Source: a virus. From it: 46,257 bases of DNA. This document shows, one piece after another, positions 24,344 through 46,257 of this stretch. Below the pieces are notes generated by a model. That model was given only the letters and a program-made list of their open reading frames with translations. It searched no databases and was not told where the DNA came from. The stretch covers positions 1-46,257 of the IMG/VR virus record IMGVR_UViG_3300025010_000098; one strand, 5' to 3'. Each line of letters starts with the position of its first letter. Positions within the stretch are counted from its first letter, which is position 1. The translations under genes were made by a program, and so were the position numbers.

Positions 24344-24757
24344 CAATTTTTTCGTATACCCGCGACTACCCATGATATCGGGGTATAAAACATCTAACAA
24401 TATCAACCACTTATCCTATGGTGTCCCATGAGGGTATTACTACCTAGAGTGGTATGTTAACCCATTGATTTATTTACCTATATACTACTACTACCCTTTA
24501 CTTATATATATATATTGGGAATATAAAAAGGCTAGTAGTACGGGGGAGCTAGTAGTACGGGAGTACGGGAAAAGAGCCGGGGAATGCAAAAAGTACAGGG
24601 TATCGGGGTATTTTCGGTATTTTGCAATGATTACAGGTATTTAGAGTACCCCGTTATCATGGGTAAATACAGGGTAAATACAGGGTATTTTGGGTAATTG
24701 TAGCACGCTACTGCGCATAAGTAACACGATACGGCCCGCTACTAGCAATAATTGCCC

Positions 24758-24815
24758 GCTACTAGACATTTGAGCTACTAGCCCCCGTGACTGCTACTAG
24801 ACATTTGAGCTACTA
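24758..24815. repeat. two 23-bp direct repeats (iteron-like)
   Basis: Two identical 23-bp words lie at 24758-24780 and 24793-24815, 35 bp start to start. Each is GCTACTAG, ACATTTGAG, then CTACTA, so each contains two CTACTA half-sites. They match the complement of the CTAGTAG words at 24532 and 24549. Binding sites for an initiator or repressor are likely. Confidence 0.6.
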
Positions 24816-24853: not shown

Positions 24854-24882
24854 TTGACATTGGTAATCCGATGGATTATGTT
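24854..24882 (+). promoter_or_regulatory. rightward early promoter
   Basis: A perfect -35 TTGACA (24854-24859), 17-bp spacer and -10 TATGTT (24877-24882) face the early gene cluster. The expected start is near 24889. The CTACTAG repeats end only about 40 bp upstream and could regulate it. Confidence 0.75.
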
Positions 24883-24923: not shown

Positions 24924-24953
24924 ATGATCATGAAAATTACAGGGCCGCAATGA
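24924..24953 (+). CDS. possible 7-9 aa leader peptide
   Basis: A strong AGAGAGGAG site is followed by ATG ATC ATG and a frame ending at TGA 24951-24953 (product MIMKITGPQ). The second ATG has the better spacing. The stop overlaps the conserved ATGAGCGGTTAAACTG motif, so ribosomes would terminate inside that element. This suggests attenuation or coupling rather than a functional peptide. Confidence 0.35.
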   Translation: MIMKITGPQ

Positions 24954-24969
24954 GCGGTTAAACTGGCCC
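24942..24969 (+). promoter_or_regulatory. early leader motif, copy 1
   Basis: The 16-base word ATGAGCGGTTAAACTG (24950-24965) occurs here and at 25705 and 26664, each time about 40 bases before an early gene. Here it is enclosed by GGGCC/GGCCC and followed by a CCCGG/CCGGG hairpin. Within it AUG AGC GGU UAA reads as a three-codon mini-frame. Confidence 0.6.
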
Positions 24970-25679: not shown

Positions 25680-25720
25680 GCTCTGGACGCGCGCCAGGGC
25701 CGCGATGAGCGGTTAAACTG
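25680..25720 (+). promoter_or_regulatory. early leader motif, copy 2, with hairpin
   Basis: A 7-bp hairpin (GCTCTGG 25680-25686 with CCAGGGC 25694-25700, one G-U pair) is followed directly by CGCG and ATGAGCGGTTAAACTG (25705-25720). The next gene starts at 25748 behind GGGAGGG. The hairpin sequence differs from copy 3 while its place is the same, which supports RNA structure. Confidence 0.6.
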
Positions 25721-26641: not shown

Positions 26642-26679
26642 GGGCGCATTACGGTGCGTCCTGATGAGCGGTTAAACTG
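26642..26679 (+). promoter_or_regulatory. early leader motif, copy 3, with UACG-loop hairpin
   Basis: GGGCGCAT (26642-26649) and GTGCGTCC (26654-26661) form an 8-bp hairpin with two G-U pairs closed by a TACG tetraloop. The ATGAGCGGTTAAACTG motif (26664-26679) follows two bases later. The next gene starts at 26703 behind GGGAGG. Confidence 0.65.
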
Positions 26680-38855: not shown

Positions 38856-39071
38856 ATGAAACAATTTTCGGTTGTAATAGAAACAGAAGATAACACCAGT
38901 GAGTGCGGTAAAAATTGTGTTTTTCTCGATGAAAGTCGGTGTTTATTATTTAATACACATCTCAATAAAACACCCGATCCTCTATCATGGCCCGATCCTC
39001 TATCATGGTTAGAGAATGGCGAATATACGAAACAACGTTGTAATAAATGCTTATCTATGGCGCCAGCATGA
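38856..39071 (+). CDS. Cys-rich small protein, 71 aa
   Basis: The 71-aa product (MKQFSVVIETEDNTSECGKN) has Cys at ECGKNC, SRC and RCNKC, which suggests a small zinc-binding or Fe-S knuckle. A short direct repeat lies in the middle (DPLSW twice). AAGAGGTGAGAG precedes ATG 38856, and its TGA overlaps the Pol B ATG, so it is probably co-translated with the polymerase. The role is unknown. Confidence 0.6.
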   Translation: MKQFSVVIETEDNTSECGKNCVFLDESRCLLFNTHLNKTPDPLSWPDPLSWLENGEYTKQRCNKCLSMAPA

Positions 39072-40918
39072 CCAGCAATATCATTTACGACATAGAAAGC
39101 TATCCGAACGTTTTTTGCATGGTAGCAAAAGACCATGAGTCCGGGCAGTTCTTCTATTTCGAGATAAGCGATCAACGCAATGATATTGCTGGTCTAGCCG
39201 CCTACATTACCCATTTACAAAAGACCGGGGCTCGTATGATCGGTTTCAATAACGTTTCTTACGATTACCCGGTCCTCCATTTCATTCTGCAGCAATACCA
39301 TGTGACCGCTACCGACATTTACCAAAAATCCATAAGCATCATCGAGGCACCACAGGATCGTCGGTTTGACCAAATCATATGGGACAATGACCGGTTTGTT
39401 CCGCAGATTGATTTGCTCAAGATCCATCATTTCGACAATATTGCCAAATTCACCAGTTTAAAAGTCCTGGAATTTAACATGCAAACTGATAATGTCCAGG
39501 ATTTACCGTTTCCGCCCGGTACTTATCTTTCACCGGATGATATTAAAATTCTGGCTTGGTATAACAAACACGACGTTGAAGAGACGGAAAACTTTTTTGT
39601 CAAATCGACCGATCAAATCAAATTCCGGGAATACCTGACCGAAAAGTACGACCGGAATTTCATGAACCATAATGATACGAAGATTGGCAAAGATTTTTTC
39701 ATTATGGAGCTGGAAAAAGCTATCCCCGGCGTCTGTTATGAAAAAATAATGGGTCGTCGGCAACCGCGGCAGACTCGCCGGCAAACCATCGCTTTTCGAG
39801 ATGTCATTTTTCCCTATGTGCAGTTTGAACAACCGGAATTTAACCGGGTGCTCGAATGGTTCAATTCGAAGGTCATTGCCGGTACCGACACAAAAGGTGT
39901 CATTGATGGGCTATCCTGCGAGATAAATGGTTTCTGCTTCAATTTTGGAACCGGGGGTATCCATGGGTCGGTTGAGTCCCAGATCGTTTATGCAACGCCC
40001 GCTGAGTGCATCCTTGACCTGGATGTGACGAGTTATTACCCGTCCCTTGCGATTGCCAATCGGCTTTACCCGGAACACCTGACTGATAAATTTTGCGAGA
40101 TTTACGCCAGGATTAAAGAGCAACGAATCGGATATGCTAAAGGAACACCGGAAAATGCCATGCTTAAACTGGCTCTCAACGGCACTTTTGGCGACACCAA
40201 CAATGTTTACAGTCCGTTTTACGACCCTCAATATACCATGGCTATCACGATCAACGGACAATTGCTCCTGTGCATGTTGGCGGAAATGTTGATCAAGGCG
40301 CCCGGCCTGCGGTTGATCCAAATCAATACTGATGGCCTTACTGTAAAATGCGACCGGCGATATTTGCCGTGGATCGACCAGATTAAAAAGTACTGGTCGA
40401 TGTTGACCGGTCTGGAACTTGAGGAAAAATTTTACAGTCGCTTTTTTGTCCGTGATGTCAACAACTATATTGCGGAATGCGAGGACGGTAAGATCAAACG
40501 CAAAGGGGCATATGAGCACAAATTAGGGTGGCATCAAAACCATTCGGCCCTGATCATACCGAAGGCCGTTGAAGCGGTTTTATTGACCGGGGCGAATTTG
40601 GACGATTTTATCCGGAACCACCCGGACGATAAAGACTTTATGCTGCGAACAAAGGTGCCGAGGAATGCTCGGTTGGTGCTTAGTGAGCAGCCCATGCAAA
40701 ACGTCACCCGGTACTATATCGCCCGAGAAGGGGGACCATTGATCAAAATTATGAAACCGCTTACAGGGAAGACAATTGACCGGCGGATCGGTATTAATGT
40801 TGGCTGGAAGGCAAGAGAGTGCAACGATCTGAGACGATTTGATAGGTCGTTGGTTGACTATAATTTTTACATCAAAGAAGCACGGAAACTAATTGAACCG
40901 TTGAGGGGGATGGAATGA
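39068..40918 (+). CDS. family B DNA polymerase
   Basis: This compact 616-aa polymerase has proofreading motifs Exo I (YDIESYP, 7-13), Exo II (GFNNVSYDYP, 59-68) and Exo III (YNKHD, 165-169). Polymerase motifs are A DLDVTSYYPS (317-326), B KLALNGTFG (367-375) and C INTDG (419-423). Motif C has N-T-D in place of the usual D-T-D. The end is a short thumb. It is shorter than RB69-type enzymes and closer in size to phi29-type ones, but no terminal protein gene is seen and PrimPol is present, so RNA/DNA-primed synthesis is more likely. ATG 39068 overlaps the preceding stop. Confidence 0.92.
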   Translation: MTSNIIYDIESYPNVFCMVAKDHESGQFFYFEISDQRNDIAGLAAYITHLQKTGARMIGFNNVSYDYPVLHFILQQYHVTATDIYQKSISIIEAPQDRRFDQIIWDNDRFVPQIDLLKIHHFDNIAKFTSLKVLEFNMQTDNVQDLPFPPGTYLSPDDIKILAWYNKHDVEETENFFVKSTDQIKFREYLTEKYDRNFMNHNDTKIGKDFFIMELEKAIPGVCYEKIMGRRQPRQTRRQTIAFRDVIFPYVQFEQPEFNRVLEWFNSKVIAGTDTKGVIDGLSCEINGFCFNFGTGGIHGSVESQIVYATPAECILDLDVTSYYPSLAIANRLYPEHLTDKFCEIYARIKEQRIGYAKGTPENAMLKLALNGTFGDTNNVYSPFYDPQYTMAITINGQLLLCMLAEMLIKAPGLRLIQINTDGLTVKCDRRYLPWIDQIKKYWSMLTGLELEEKFYSRFFVRDVNNYIAECEDGKIKRKGAYEHKLGWHQNHSALIIPKAVEAVLLTGANLDDFIRNHPDDKDFMLRTKVPRNARLVLSEQPMQNVTRYYIAREGGPLIKIMKPLTGKTIDRRIGINVGWKARECNDLRRFDRSLVDYNFYIKEARKLIEPLRGME

Positions 40919-41337
40919 ACCACCCCTGCCCACACGCCCACATAGACCAGGACGGCGACACGGTATGCGGCATAGTGCCGATACCGTGCATCACTTATGA
41001 CTGTGAGCGGTGGGCTTATAAAAAGGAGAATGATATGGAAAAAATTGACAGGAAATTTCACTTTGTGGCTACTAACCCATGCAAGGGTGATGTTTATACA
41101 GAAGAAAATGCGATAATCTTCTGCGCCAAAGATGCGGCATTAGTGCCGACACTGGAGACTTATTATCACGAATGCAAGGCGCTCGGGTGCCGAAAAGAAC
41201 ACCTCGAAAGCATTGATTTGCTGATTGAGAGGGTTCGGAGATTTCAGGCTATCGGCAAGGATAAAAAGCACTTCCATGTCCCGGACACGGACACAGATTG
41301 TGAAATCGACCGTTGCATAGGTGGGAAAGGTTTATAA
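40915..41337 (+). CDS. Cys-rich protein with two possible starts, 140 aa
   Basis: The long form starts at ATG 40915 overlapping the Pol B stop (ATGA). It has a Cys-rich N-terminus (MNHPCPHAHIDQDGDTVCGI, then PCITYDC). A second in-frame ATG at 41035 is preceded by AAAAAGGAGAATGAT, the strongest ribosome site nearby, and would give a 100-aa protein (MEKIDRKFHFVATNPCKGDV). Both forms may be made. The shorter domain has further Cys and a helical region (ESIDLLIERVRRFQ). No family is recognised. Element copy 1 of the structured repeat starts at its stop codon. Confidence 0.6.
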   Translation: MNHPCPHAHIDQDGDTVCGIVPIPCITYDCERWAYKKENDMEKIDRKFHFVATNPCKGDVYTEENAIIFCAKDAALVPTLETYYHECKALGCRKEHLESIDLLIERVRRFQAIGKDKKHFHVPDTDTDCEIDRCIGGKGL

Positions 41338-41434
41338 CAAGTTGTGGACCATGCCTCGTAGGCGGCGGGAAGAACCTATTGCAAAGGTGCCTTAAAATAT
41401 TTCCTGGCCCACATTTTACCAAAAGGAGAATGAT
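41335..41434 (+). ncRNA. repeated structured RNA element, copy 1
   Basis: This ~95-base non-coding segment recurs at 42171-42265. The outer stem pairs TGTGGACC (41343-41350) with GGCCCACA (41406-41413), with one mismatch. Inner hairpins are GCC-TCGTA-GGC and ACCT-ATTGCAA-AGGT. A ribosome site and the gene at 41435 follow directly. It could be a 5'-UTR regulator or a processed small RNA. Confidence 0.6.
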
Positions 41435-41653
41435 ATGCCTACACCAGAACAGTTGGTTAACCGCTGGCAGGGCCAGATCGGTTTTAACCTTAATAAGTTT
41501 TTTGAAAAGTCTGACGAATTAAGTCTGGCGCATGAGGTGGCACAACTTCGCAAAGAAATTGCAACTCTACGGGCCGAACTGGCTCCCGTGCCATCGCTGA
41601 TCGTGACCGGCCGGCAGGCGCTCGGTGAATTTAAGAGACTGATGAAAGGATAA
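41435..41653 (+). CDS. small coiled-coil protein, 72 aa
   Basis: AAAAGGAGAATGAT precedes ATG 41435. The product (MPTPEQLVNRWQGQIGFNLN) has a helical second half with heptads (LAHEVAQLRKEIATLRAEL) and a C-terminal RQALGEFKRLMKG. It probably forms a coiled-coil dimer. The structured element directly upstream may control its translation. No named function. Confidence 0.6.
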   Translation: MPTPEQLVNRWQGQIGFNLNKFFEKSDELSLAHEVAQLRKEIATLRAELAPVPSLIVTGRQALGEFKRLMKG

Positions 41654-41657
41654 CGGT

Positions 41658-41966
41658 ATGAGCATACAAAAAATATCTGGCCTTATATGTGGAAAGTGCG
41701 GAGCTACAAAGGTAAGAATTTACCGTGATTATGGCATGTTTAGACGGCCTGAAAGAGATCGGTGTAACCAGTGCATTGACCCGGATCATCGTGGCTGGAT
41801 GGTTCCATGCATACTCAGCAAAGACGGTGACGCCTGGGGATATAGTTCTGTTCCGCTTGATGCTCTTGAGGAATTTTCCGCATTACCGGAACAGGACTCT
41901 TCGTTGCCTTATTGGGATAAGAGGCAAAGTTGTTGGTCAGACAGTTTTTTCCACCAGAAAGGATAA
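41658..41966 (+). CDS. zinc-ribbon phage protein, 102 aa
   Basis: The 102-aa protein has a four-Cys zinc ribbon (CGKC near residue 11 and CNQC near 36) with YRDYGMFRRPERDR between. A conserved-looking tail follows: WMVPCILSKDGDAWGYSSVP, DALEEFSALPE. I recall this tail in other phage proteins of unknown role. It starts four bases after the previous stop. Confidence 0.65.
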   Translation: MSIQKISGLICGKCGATKVRIYRDYGMFRRPERDRCNQCIDPDHRGWMVPCILSKDGDAWGYSSVPLDALEEFSALPEQDSSLPYWDKRQSCWSDSFFHQKG

Positions 41967-41970
41967 GAGT

Positions 41971-42165
41971 ATGGCAAGAGCACGATTACATATCATTTGT
42001 GGGAATTGTGGGTGCAATGACGAGTGGAAATTGATTCTTTCTCGTGACGGGGACGATATCACCAAAGATGAGCCAGAGTTCGAGGATGCAGCACGACTGC
42101 TGTGTCGTAATTGCTCAACATTGCACAATCTTAAAGATTCGGCAAAAACTGTAGATATTATATAG
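41971..42165 (+). CDS. zinc-ribbon protein, 64 aa
   Basis: AAAGGATAAGAGT precedes ATG 41971. The 64-aa product (MARARLHIICGNCGCNDEWK) has Cys pairs CGNC and CRNC bracketing an acidic segment (SRDGDDITKDEPEFEDAARL), typical of a small zinc ribbon. It continues the run of zinc-binding small proteins downstream of Pol B. A longer frame reading through from 41725 overlaps the previous gene and lacks a ribosome site, so I do not use it. Confidence 0.65.
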   Translation: MARARLHIICGNCGCNDEWKLILSRDGDDITKDEPEFEDAARLLCRNCSTLHNLKDSAKTVDII

Positions 42166-42170
42166 GAGCA

Positions 42171-42265
42171 TAACAAGTTGTGGGCCATGCTCCATAGGTG
42201 GAGGGAAGAACCTATTGCAAAGGTGCCCTAAAATATTTCCGGCCCGCATCACATAAAGGAGAATA
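42171..42265 (+). ncRNA. repeated structured RNA element, copy 2
   Basis: The outer stem is perfect here: TGTGGGCC (42179-42186) with GGCCCGCA (42241-42248), including a U-G where copy 1 has U-A. The hairpin ACCT-ATTGCAA-AGGT is identical in both copies. GGAGAATA and the gene at 42266 follow at once. The paired positions change in ways that keep pairing. Confidence 0.6.
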
Positions 42266-42568
42266 ATGAAAATACAAATAGCAACAACGATACTCGCTTT
42301 GCTTATTCCCATACTTGCTATGGGGGTGTATGAAAATAGAGGAGATAAGGACGAGATTACCGCTAATCTTTTGCTGTTCTGGTCATTCTTAGCATTTATT
42401 ACCGTGAGATGTGTGGGGTGGTATGGTTATAAATCACACCACCCCACACATCTCACGGTAATGGTCACACTCGCGCCGGTTCGTAAACGGGCACGGCTCT
42501 TTCCGGAATCATTTTGCCCGTGGGCACCAGTATTTGCCGGCGAGTGCGGCGTTGCATCTTGTCGGTAA
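42266..42568 (+). CDS. small membrane protein, C-terminus uncertain
   Basis: AAAGGAG precedes ATG 42266. The first ~50 residues hold two hydrophobic segments (TTILALLIPILAMGVY and LLLFWSFLAFITVRCVG) separated by a charged turn, suggesting a two-pass inner-membrane protein. From about residue 45 the frame runs through the 25-bp palindrome and then over a possible minus-strand gene. The C-terminal half may therefore be fortuitous, or the original gene may have been cut by the inverted duplication. A role in membrane takeover or exclusion is possible but unproven. Confidence 0.5.
   Translation: MKIQIATTILALLIPILAMGVYENRGDKDEITANLLLFWSFLAFITVRCVGWYGYKSHHPTHLTVMVTLAPVRKRARLFPESFCPWAPVFAGECGVASCR
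42398..42462. terminator. perfect 25-bp palindrome between convergent operons
   Basis: Arms 42398-42422 and 42438-42462 are exact inverse complements (25 bp, 15-base loop), the arm starting ATTACCGTGAGATG. It lies where the rightward cluster meets the end of the leftward late operon, two bases after the stop of a 30-codon minus frame. No U tract follows on either strand. A bidirectional or RNA-stabilising 3' hairpin is likely. Confidence 0.65.
42465..42557 (-). CDS. possible 30-aa basic protein, last of late operon
   Basis: This 30-codon minus-strand frame (MQRRTRRQILVPTGKMIPER) starts with ATG 42557, 21 bases after the stop of the preceding late gene, and ends two bases before the palindrome. 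It is basic and Pro-containing. The ribosome site is weak. It conflicts with the C-terminal half of the plus-strand frame at 42266-42568. Confidence 0.35.
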   Translation of the reverse strand: MQRRTRRQILVPTGKMIPERAVPVYEPARV

Positions 42569-45308: not shown

Positions 45309-46257
45309 TTACGACCCACACGCAAAAAGATATGCGTCACAGTCCCACTCGCCTGCTGCACTGTATGAGCAAACAGCAGTGGCACCTGTTGTGCCATCAC
45401 TGACAATATTCACCCCGGCACCGCAAGATGTACCATTGAGCCAAATAAGTTCTGTACCGTTCGGCTCAAGTGTCACAGCATATGCGCCTCTGGCTTTTGC
45501 TGTAAAATTCATCCCAGCGGCAATCGCCGGTAAAACACCTGTTCCTGCCGCTGTCCCGATCCACTGGCCACTGTACATGCCAATTCCGCTCATTGTCCAT
45601 GCGTCAGGGTCGGCTATGGTTGGGGTTTGCGACGCTCCAGGGTAAATCCACGTTCCGACAGAAACACTCTTAATTGTCCCATCCCCCATGGTTTGGTTGC
45701 CAGGAACAGCGAAGGCCATCACTTGCCCAGCGGCAGGATCGGCCAAAGGTGGGATGTGAATCCTGCTCGCAGAAACGTCACCATAAATACCCCATCCAAG
45801 ATAGTTTGTGCCGTTGTCGGTATCCTCCAGGAAATAGATATATTGACCACCTGATGCAGTACCAGGGGCAGAGAATGAAGAAGCAACCAACGGCTTGTTA
45901 AAGGTGAAATCAGTATCACTGACCGTGAATGCCGGGTCTGTCCCGGCGCCGGTATCAAATGTGTGGACCTGTGAACCTCCAGCGGCAGCGCCCCAAGTGA
46001 TGTCATCATAGGCAGTAAAATCCACGCCCCCGCCCAGAGTCTCTACAAACGTCTCCAATGCCTGGAGAGCCGCTTTGACGGTTTGGTTATCCGCAATCGT
46101 GGACCCAGTGAACGCCCCGAGGTTTGCAGCACCTTCTGCTACGCCGGAAAGAGTTATCAGATCATCAACCGCAAGACTGGCCGCAGTTGGTATAGCAACC
46201 CATGACCTGACCCCGGCATCTGTTGAGCTAAGGACAAATCCAGTTGTGGCGGGATTA
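45309..46257 (-). CDS. tail-fibre/adhesin C-terminal part, open at right edge
   Basis: The frame enters at the right edge and ends with TAA at 45309. It starts with NPATTGFVLSSTDAGVRSW, then repeats the module found at 1-650 (VDDLITLSGVAEGAANLGAF onward). It ends in a distinct ~75-aa C-terminal domain (FTAKARGAYAVTLEP, NGTSCGAG, DCDAYLFACGS) with four Cys. Joined to the left edge it completes a 634-aa signal-peptide protein. The C-terminal domain resembles caps of phage fibre-like proteins. Host binding is inferred. Confidence 0.75.
   Translation of the reverse strand, partial: NPATTGFVLSSTDAGVRSWVAIPTAASLAVDDLITLSGVAEGAANLGAFTGSTIADNQTVKAALQALETFVETLGGGVDFTAYDDITWGAAAGGSQVHTFDTGAGTDPAFTVSDTDFTFNKPLVASSFSAPGTASGGQYIYFLEDTDNGTNYLGWGIYGDVSASRIHIPPLADPAAGQVMAFAVPGNQTMGDGTIKSVSVGTWIYPGASQTPTIADPDAWTMSGIGMYSGQWIGTAAGTGVLPAIAAGMNFTAKARGAYAVTLEPNGTELIWLNGTSCGAGVNIVSDGTTGATAVCSYSAAGEWDCDAYLFACGS
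45547..46196. repeat. adhesion-module repeat, copy B (partner 1-650)
   Basis: The segment matches bases 1-650 at constant offset. Differences cluster at third codon positions apart from a few amino-acid changes near 45660-45680 and 45880-45900. Beyond 46196 the two copies differ completely. Confidence 0.85.

Follow-up and report, generated by a model that had tools for sequence, protein, structure and literature searches.

A duplicated intergenic element before two small genes downstream of Pol B in a podovirus-like phage: a possible 5′-leader control element

Introduction

Repeated sequences at the translation starts of small phage genes have been described in the Cluster K mycobacteriophages, where SAS, a genome-group-specific repeat with the 13-bp asymmetric sequence GGGATAGGAGCCC, occurs 11–19 times per genome at the starts of some small non-structural genes (PMC3203893). 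About half of the SAS sites carry a further upstream element, ESAS, consisting of a pair of 17-bp imperfect inverted repeats around a short spacer; the SAS-associated genes belong to different families, and the describing paper left the mechanism of SAS and ESAS open (PMC3203893). Candidate cis-regulatory RNA motifs such as manA and wcaG were found in phages by covariation across many sequences (PMC2864571), and conserved boundary sequences have been discussed at the junctions of mosaic phage genomes (PMC3029335, PMC4351075).

Here, we analyse an element that occurs twice among small genes in a single virus record of 46,257 bases (the window). The locus resembles SAS/ESAS in that several small genes have a start motif and some of these also have a longer element upstream. 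However, the start motif is a different one of 14–17 nt, found in three places and sharing no sequence with SAS, whereas the upstream element is asymmetric, 80 nt long and present in two places, and lacks the 17-bp inverted repeats of ESAS. Since neither sequence nor shape matches, the element is not a member of SAS/ESAS. The likeness to manA/wcaG-type motifs is that some of these occur in phages and several in the 5′ leaders of genes, but they are known from many covarying sequences, whereas the present element is known from two sequences and matches no Rfam family. As direct repeats at gene boundaries around a small cassette, the copies also recall the mosaic-junction sequences, although those described are mostly shorter and were recognised by comparing genomes with and without the cassette, whereas a single genome is considered here.

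Results

Gene neighbourhood

The window belongs to a podovirus-like phage whose terminase shows 52% likeness to that of EBPR podovirus 1 and is 100% identical to that of another virus record, IMGVR_UViG_3300001242_000101. The phage also encodes a head–tail adaptor, a long tail protein and a primase/helicase in which NrS-1-like and VapE-like domains were recognised. Small rightward genes come after the Pol B gene (39047–40918, + strand). The name Pol B is that of an earlier, sequence-only reading, and no Pfam family matched the protein, which has 204 relatives in candidate stretches of IMG/VR. Neither Pfam nor PHROG families were found among the small genes near the copies, and a search for relatives of the neighbouring proteins of 102, 140 and 63 aa found none.

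Two of the rightward ORFs have features of their own. Inside the 140-aa ORF (40915–41337), an ATG at 41035 is preceded both by the shared start motif and by a strong ribosome site, so that the ORF may yield a 100-aa form or two in-frame products. In the last rightward ORF, at a point where genes converge, positions 42398–42462 form a near-perfect inverted repeat of 31 bp around a 3-nt loop, with a T run on neither side. It may be a terminator of the non-intrinsic type or an artefact of assembly, and the end of the ORF is doubtful because of it.

Extent and placement of the element

Positions 41334–41434 and 42170–42265 of the window are 85% identical over ~100 nt (E 7.9e-27, and E 2.4e-24 in a second comparison), confirming the claim of the sequence-only reading that two intergenic segments share most positions. 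Over 79 aligned positions the copies differ by eight substitutions and one inserted T. A third copy was not found anywhere in the 46-kb record, even by an unfiltered covariance search, whose third match (40383, 13 bits) lies within polB and was rejected as a partial chance match. Copy 1 overlaps the TAA stop at 41335–41337 and extends to the ribosome site of the 72-aa gene; copy 2 begins 4 nt past a TAG whose last base is 42165, and its far end lies at the ribosome site of the ORF that starts at 42266. Both copies have the same orientation, and each fills a gap between a stop codon and a ribosome site, in agreement with the earlier statement that each ends in the ribosome site of a different small gene. 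The genes flanking the two copies show no likeness to each other by eye, so the duplicated unit is the element itself and not a gene. Coordinates of the features are collected in Table 1.

Table 1. Positions in the window of the two copies, their parts (the outer stem as proposed), the start motifs and the downstream genes
Feature	Position	Strand	Remark
Element copy 1, conserved part, 80 nt	41334–41413	+	85% identical to copy 2
Element copy 2, conserved part, 79 nt	42170–42248	+	85% identical to copy 1
Outer-stem 5′ arm, copy 1, TGTGGACC	41343–41350	+	7/8 pairs with 41406–41413; A·C mismatch
Outer-stem 3′ arm, copy 1, GGCCCACA	41406–41413	+	adjoins extra T at 41405
Outer-stem 5′ arm, copy 2, TGTGGGCC	42179–42186	+	8/8 pairs with 42241–42248, one G–U
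Outer-stem 3′ arm, copy 2, GGCCCGCA	42241–42248	+	pairs with 42179–42186
Variable arm, copy 1, CCTCGTAGGCGGCG	41354–41367	+	holds 5/8 substitutions
Variable arm, copy 2, CTCCA-TAGG-TGGAG hairpin	42190–42203	+	pairing probability 0.68–0.99
Invariant 25-nt core, copy 1	41367–41391	+	ACCT-ATTGCAA-AGGT stretch at 41374–41388
Invariant 25-nt core, copy 2	42203–42227	+	ACCT-ATTGCAA-AGGT stretch at 42210–42224
Third start motif, AAAAGGAGAATGATATG	41021–41037	+	upstream element absent
Start motif, AAAAGGAGAATGATATG	41421–41437	+	before 72-aa gene; exact copy at 41021–41037; shuffles expect 0.15 matches
Start motif variant, AAAGGAGAATAATG	42255–42268	+	before last gene
72-aa gene	41435–41653	+	downstream of copy 1; no known family
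100-aa ORF	42266–42568	+	downstream of copy 2; hydrophobic start; no known family

Conserved and variable parts

The start motif (A)AAAGGAGAAT(G/A)AT is common to three consecutive genes and occurs nowhere else in the 46 kb; the upstream element precedes two of the three. Conservation within the element is uneven. Its first 14 nt are unchanged between the copies, as is a 25-nt core, GGGAAGAACCTATTGCAAAGGTGCC, and the invariant block ends in the AT-rich TAAAATATTT. Substitutions are clustered, with six of the eight falling within 19 nt at positions 15–33 (scan P 0.033); the length of the longest unchanged run is not in itself unusual (P 0.35).

Proposed RNA structure

The sequence-only reading had proposed an 8-bp outer stem, maintained through a U–A to U–G change, around an identical ACCU-AUUGCAA-AGGU hairpin. 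The U–A to U–G change is present (pair 12–77), but the stem is not intact in both copies, the sixth of its eight pairs being an A·C mismatch in copy 1, where the extra T beside the stem also lacks a partner in copy 2. Pair probabilities in the outer stem are ~0.98–1.0 in both copies, except for the outermost pair (~0.6) and the two pairs inside the mismatch of copy 1 (~0.61). The hairpin is likewise identical in sequence, but as a structure its pairing probability is 0.24–0.34, and because it is invariant between the copies it is uninformative on structure. As drawn, the variable-arm stem has probability 0 in copy 1, and among its pairs one is changed on both sides, one is still paired via G–U and one is broken. 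The two sequences together provide five variable pairs, comprising one double change (A–U to G–C), two consistent single changes and two broken pairs, and this degree of covariation was equalled by 248 of 500 shuffles.

Folding stability did not exceed that of controls, either for single copies compared with shuffled sequences (z +0.45 and –0.78) or for the consensus fold of the aligned pair, which was no better than shuffles (z ~ –0.6 in the sense orientation versus ~ –0.8 antisense). Two weak points favour a structure: seven of the eight substitutions fall within the proposed stems (P 0.043, for stems partly chosen from the same data), and 4.5% of column shuffles gave a long-range helix with five or more pairs in one copy and eight or more in the other. 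The element is asymmetric; distant parts of it are complementary in a single place, over 8 nt separated by 54 nt. Two other pairing schemes were rejected: the fold preferred by RNAalifold, in which the loop UAGG pairs with the core CCUA, costs copy 2 ~10 kcal/mol relative to its best fold, and sequestration of the ribosome site is predicted in copy 1, through a local hairpin outside the conserved part, and not in copy 2. With a broken outer pair in copy 1, an invariant hairpin and a shared fold no better than that of shuffled alignments, the claim that the element is a structured RNA whose outer stem and hairpin are conserved is weak, and on such thin evidence we regard it as not supported.

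Searches for known classes and relatives

None of the 4227 Rfam families reached its gathering score in the window and none matched over the copies at E<10, the best match near the region being a chance one (E 6.4) on the other strand outside the copies; the earlier view that the element fits no known riboswitch or ribozyme class was thus borne out. ARAGORN found 0 tRNA or tRNA-like genes in the window, and a tRNA-like reading of the 7-nt AUUGCAA loop was rejected on this result and on the absence, by eye, of a T arm. Neither copy contains an intrinsic terminator (a GC-rich hairpin followed by a T run). No relatives of the element were found by blastn in INPHARED and PLSDB, by IMG/VR scans with four DNA patterns (the matches being short coding or partial chance ones), by a one-pattern scan of GTDB genomes, the pattern for which recovers both copies in their own record, or by blastn/nhmmer in 80 loci of PolB relatives. 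The covariance-model search for homologues, covering 48 related virus records and the pattern matches, returned only chance or coding matches. The pattern scans require near-exact cores, so a diverged family could escape them, and records very near the window were possibly excluded. As far as these searches reach, the best reading is that the element is private to this genome.

Repeats after polB in relatives and elsewhere in the record

Self-comparison of the PolB relatives revealed, in several of them, dispersed repeats of 38–85 nt that end near the ribosome site; one copy immediately follows polB, and further copies precede small genes. Repeated control units after polB also occur, then, elsewhere in the group. 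In four of the relatives' loci (L074, L077, L078 and L081) the repeats look like sigma-70 promoters with leaders, of the TTGACA-N18-AATAAG type, and match 8–10 of 12 positions in a comparison with the consensus hexamers. The promoter repeats after polB in these four loci carry a conserved leader, GAGACACACCAACCGGAGACAAG, before the ATG. The present element occupies the same place but is unrelated in sequence and lacks such hexamers, with no TTGACA/TATAAT pair in register on the + strand of either copy, which leaves a promoter of another kind or a leader element.

Other repeats were observed in the record. A second intergenic family, ATGAGCGGTTAAACTG, has three members on the + strand (24950–24965, 25705–25720 and 26664–26679), all of them in gaps that precede small rightward genes. 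Two of the three have 21 nt in common, and hairpins of unrelated sequence lie ahead of these two. This family had no match in Rfam or INPHARED, and only chance coding matches in IMG/VR. Two 28-nt repeats, TG[CA]C[CT]GCTACTAGACATTTGAGCTACTA, lie 35 nt apart at 24753–24815, within an AT-rich gap, and precede a sigma-70-like promoter, TTGACA..TATGTT, at 24854; their region is possibly an operator or origin region. A 300-nt direct repeat, 94% identical, is found near the record ends (1–300 and 45547–45846) in tail-like genes on the minus strand, and represents a gene duplication or a terminal feature.

Discussion

The reading that we favour, tentatively and with somewhat less than even confidence, is a phage-specific 5′-leader regulatory element in two copies, most likely acting on the translation or mRNA of two small genes; in decreasing order of probability, it is preferred to a promoter or operator, a boundary spacer, a structured RNA and a leader peptide. 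It is suggested by the exact fit of both copies, in the same orientation, to gaps between genes, by a start motif common to three consecutive genes of which two have the element, by the clustering of substitutions in one arm beside an unchanged beginning and core, and by the lack of a + strand sigma-70 promoter in either copy. SAS/ESAS provides a precedent for repeats tied to translation starts within one phage group (PMC3203893). Against this reading, there are two copies only, possibly from a recent duplication, and their conservation may therefore reflect a short history; folding stability is not above that of shuffled sequences, and the ribosome site is not occluded in a conserved manner. 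Moreover, the repeats at the same place in PolB relatives look like promoters, a DNA function.

This last point bears on the nearest alternative, control at the DNA level, in which a promoter or operator is repeated before each block of small genes and served by a phage activator or by a sigma factor to which the promoter scan does not extend. The relatives' sigma-70 promoters with leaders after polB favour it, as does the AT-rich TAAAATATTT at the end of the invariant block, which could melt. However, the sigma-70 hexamers are not in register in either copy, a sigma-54 site (GG-N10-GC) was rejected because the spacing is 11, one base off by eye, and a single-subunit RNA polymerase was not noticed by eye among the ORFs; on balance we consider DNA-level control rather unlikely. 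Slightly less probable is a duplicated spacer without a regulatory role, a recombination boundary at which cassettes of small genes are exchanged by homologous recombination. The copies do bracket 41435–42165, comprising three small genes of no known family, and short boundary repeats around gained or lost genes have been described in phages (PMC3029335, PMC4351075), but such a boundary leaves unexplained both the unchanged core beside a variable arm and the link to the shared start motif, and a one-copy relative without the cassette was not found.

Readings that depend on RNA structure or on coding fare worse. A new class of phage 5′-leader RNA that co-regulates unrelated small genes and is built around a three-way junction, with one arm variable and the core invariant, is very unlikely, and a new class of structured cis-regulatory RNA, riboswitch-like or protein-binding, comprising outer stem, variable arm and core hairpin, is less likely still. 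The placement of substitutions in the proposed stems, the compensatory pair with its two consistent changes, and the rarity of so long a helix among column shuffles are consistent with the latter. They are offset by the breakage of two of the five variable pairs, the arm that does not form as drawn in copy 1, a consensus energy no better than that of shuffles or the antisense strand, the different fold preferred by RNAalifold, and the failure to find homologues or an Rfam match. The least probable reading is a leader peptide (TTG/ATG ... REEPIAKVP-stop) in each copy, whose translation would control the next gene. An open frame does run through both copies to the same TAA (41393–41395 and 42229–42231) with ..REEPIAKVP conserved, but the changes are spread evenly over codon positions (2, 2 and 3) and conservation is equal past the stop, making coding unlikely; four or more of the changes alter the peptide, and a good ribosome site at a set distance is not seen by eye in both copies.

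If the two copies are 5′-leader control elements, a mechanism may be outlined from their position in the final part of the rightward replication operon. Lying inside a rightward gene run, they would be transcribed from the upstream operon and would exert their effect at the mRNA level. The invariant ATAACAAGTTGTGG and GGGAAGAACCTATTGCAAAGGTGCC may be recognised by a protein (or RNA) of phage or host origin; the stretch between them would be a tolerant arm, and the outer stem may present the core. Recognition would then set the translation or stability of both downstream small genes together.

As two near-identical leaders before different genes in one operon, the copies would provide a clean pair for testing. 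Should the element prove to be a duplicated spacer, it would show how easily two related copies suggest RNA structure. If instead both genes do share a leader, the case would join SAS/ESAS as one in which a phage ties together small genes of unrelated kinds by means of a control sequence private to the genome.
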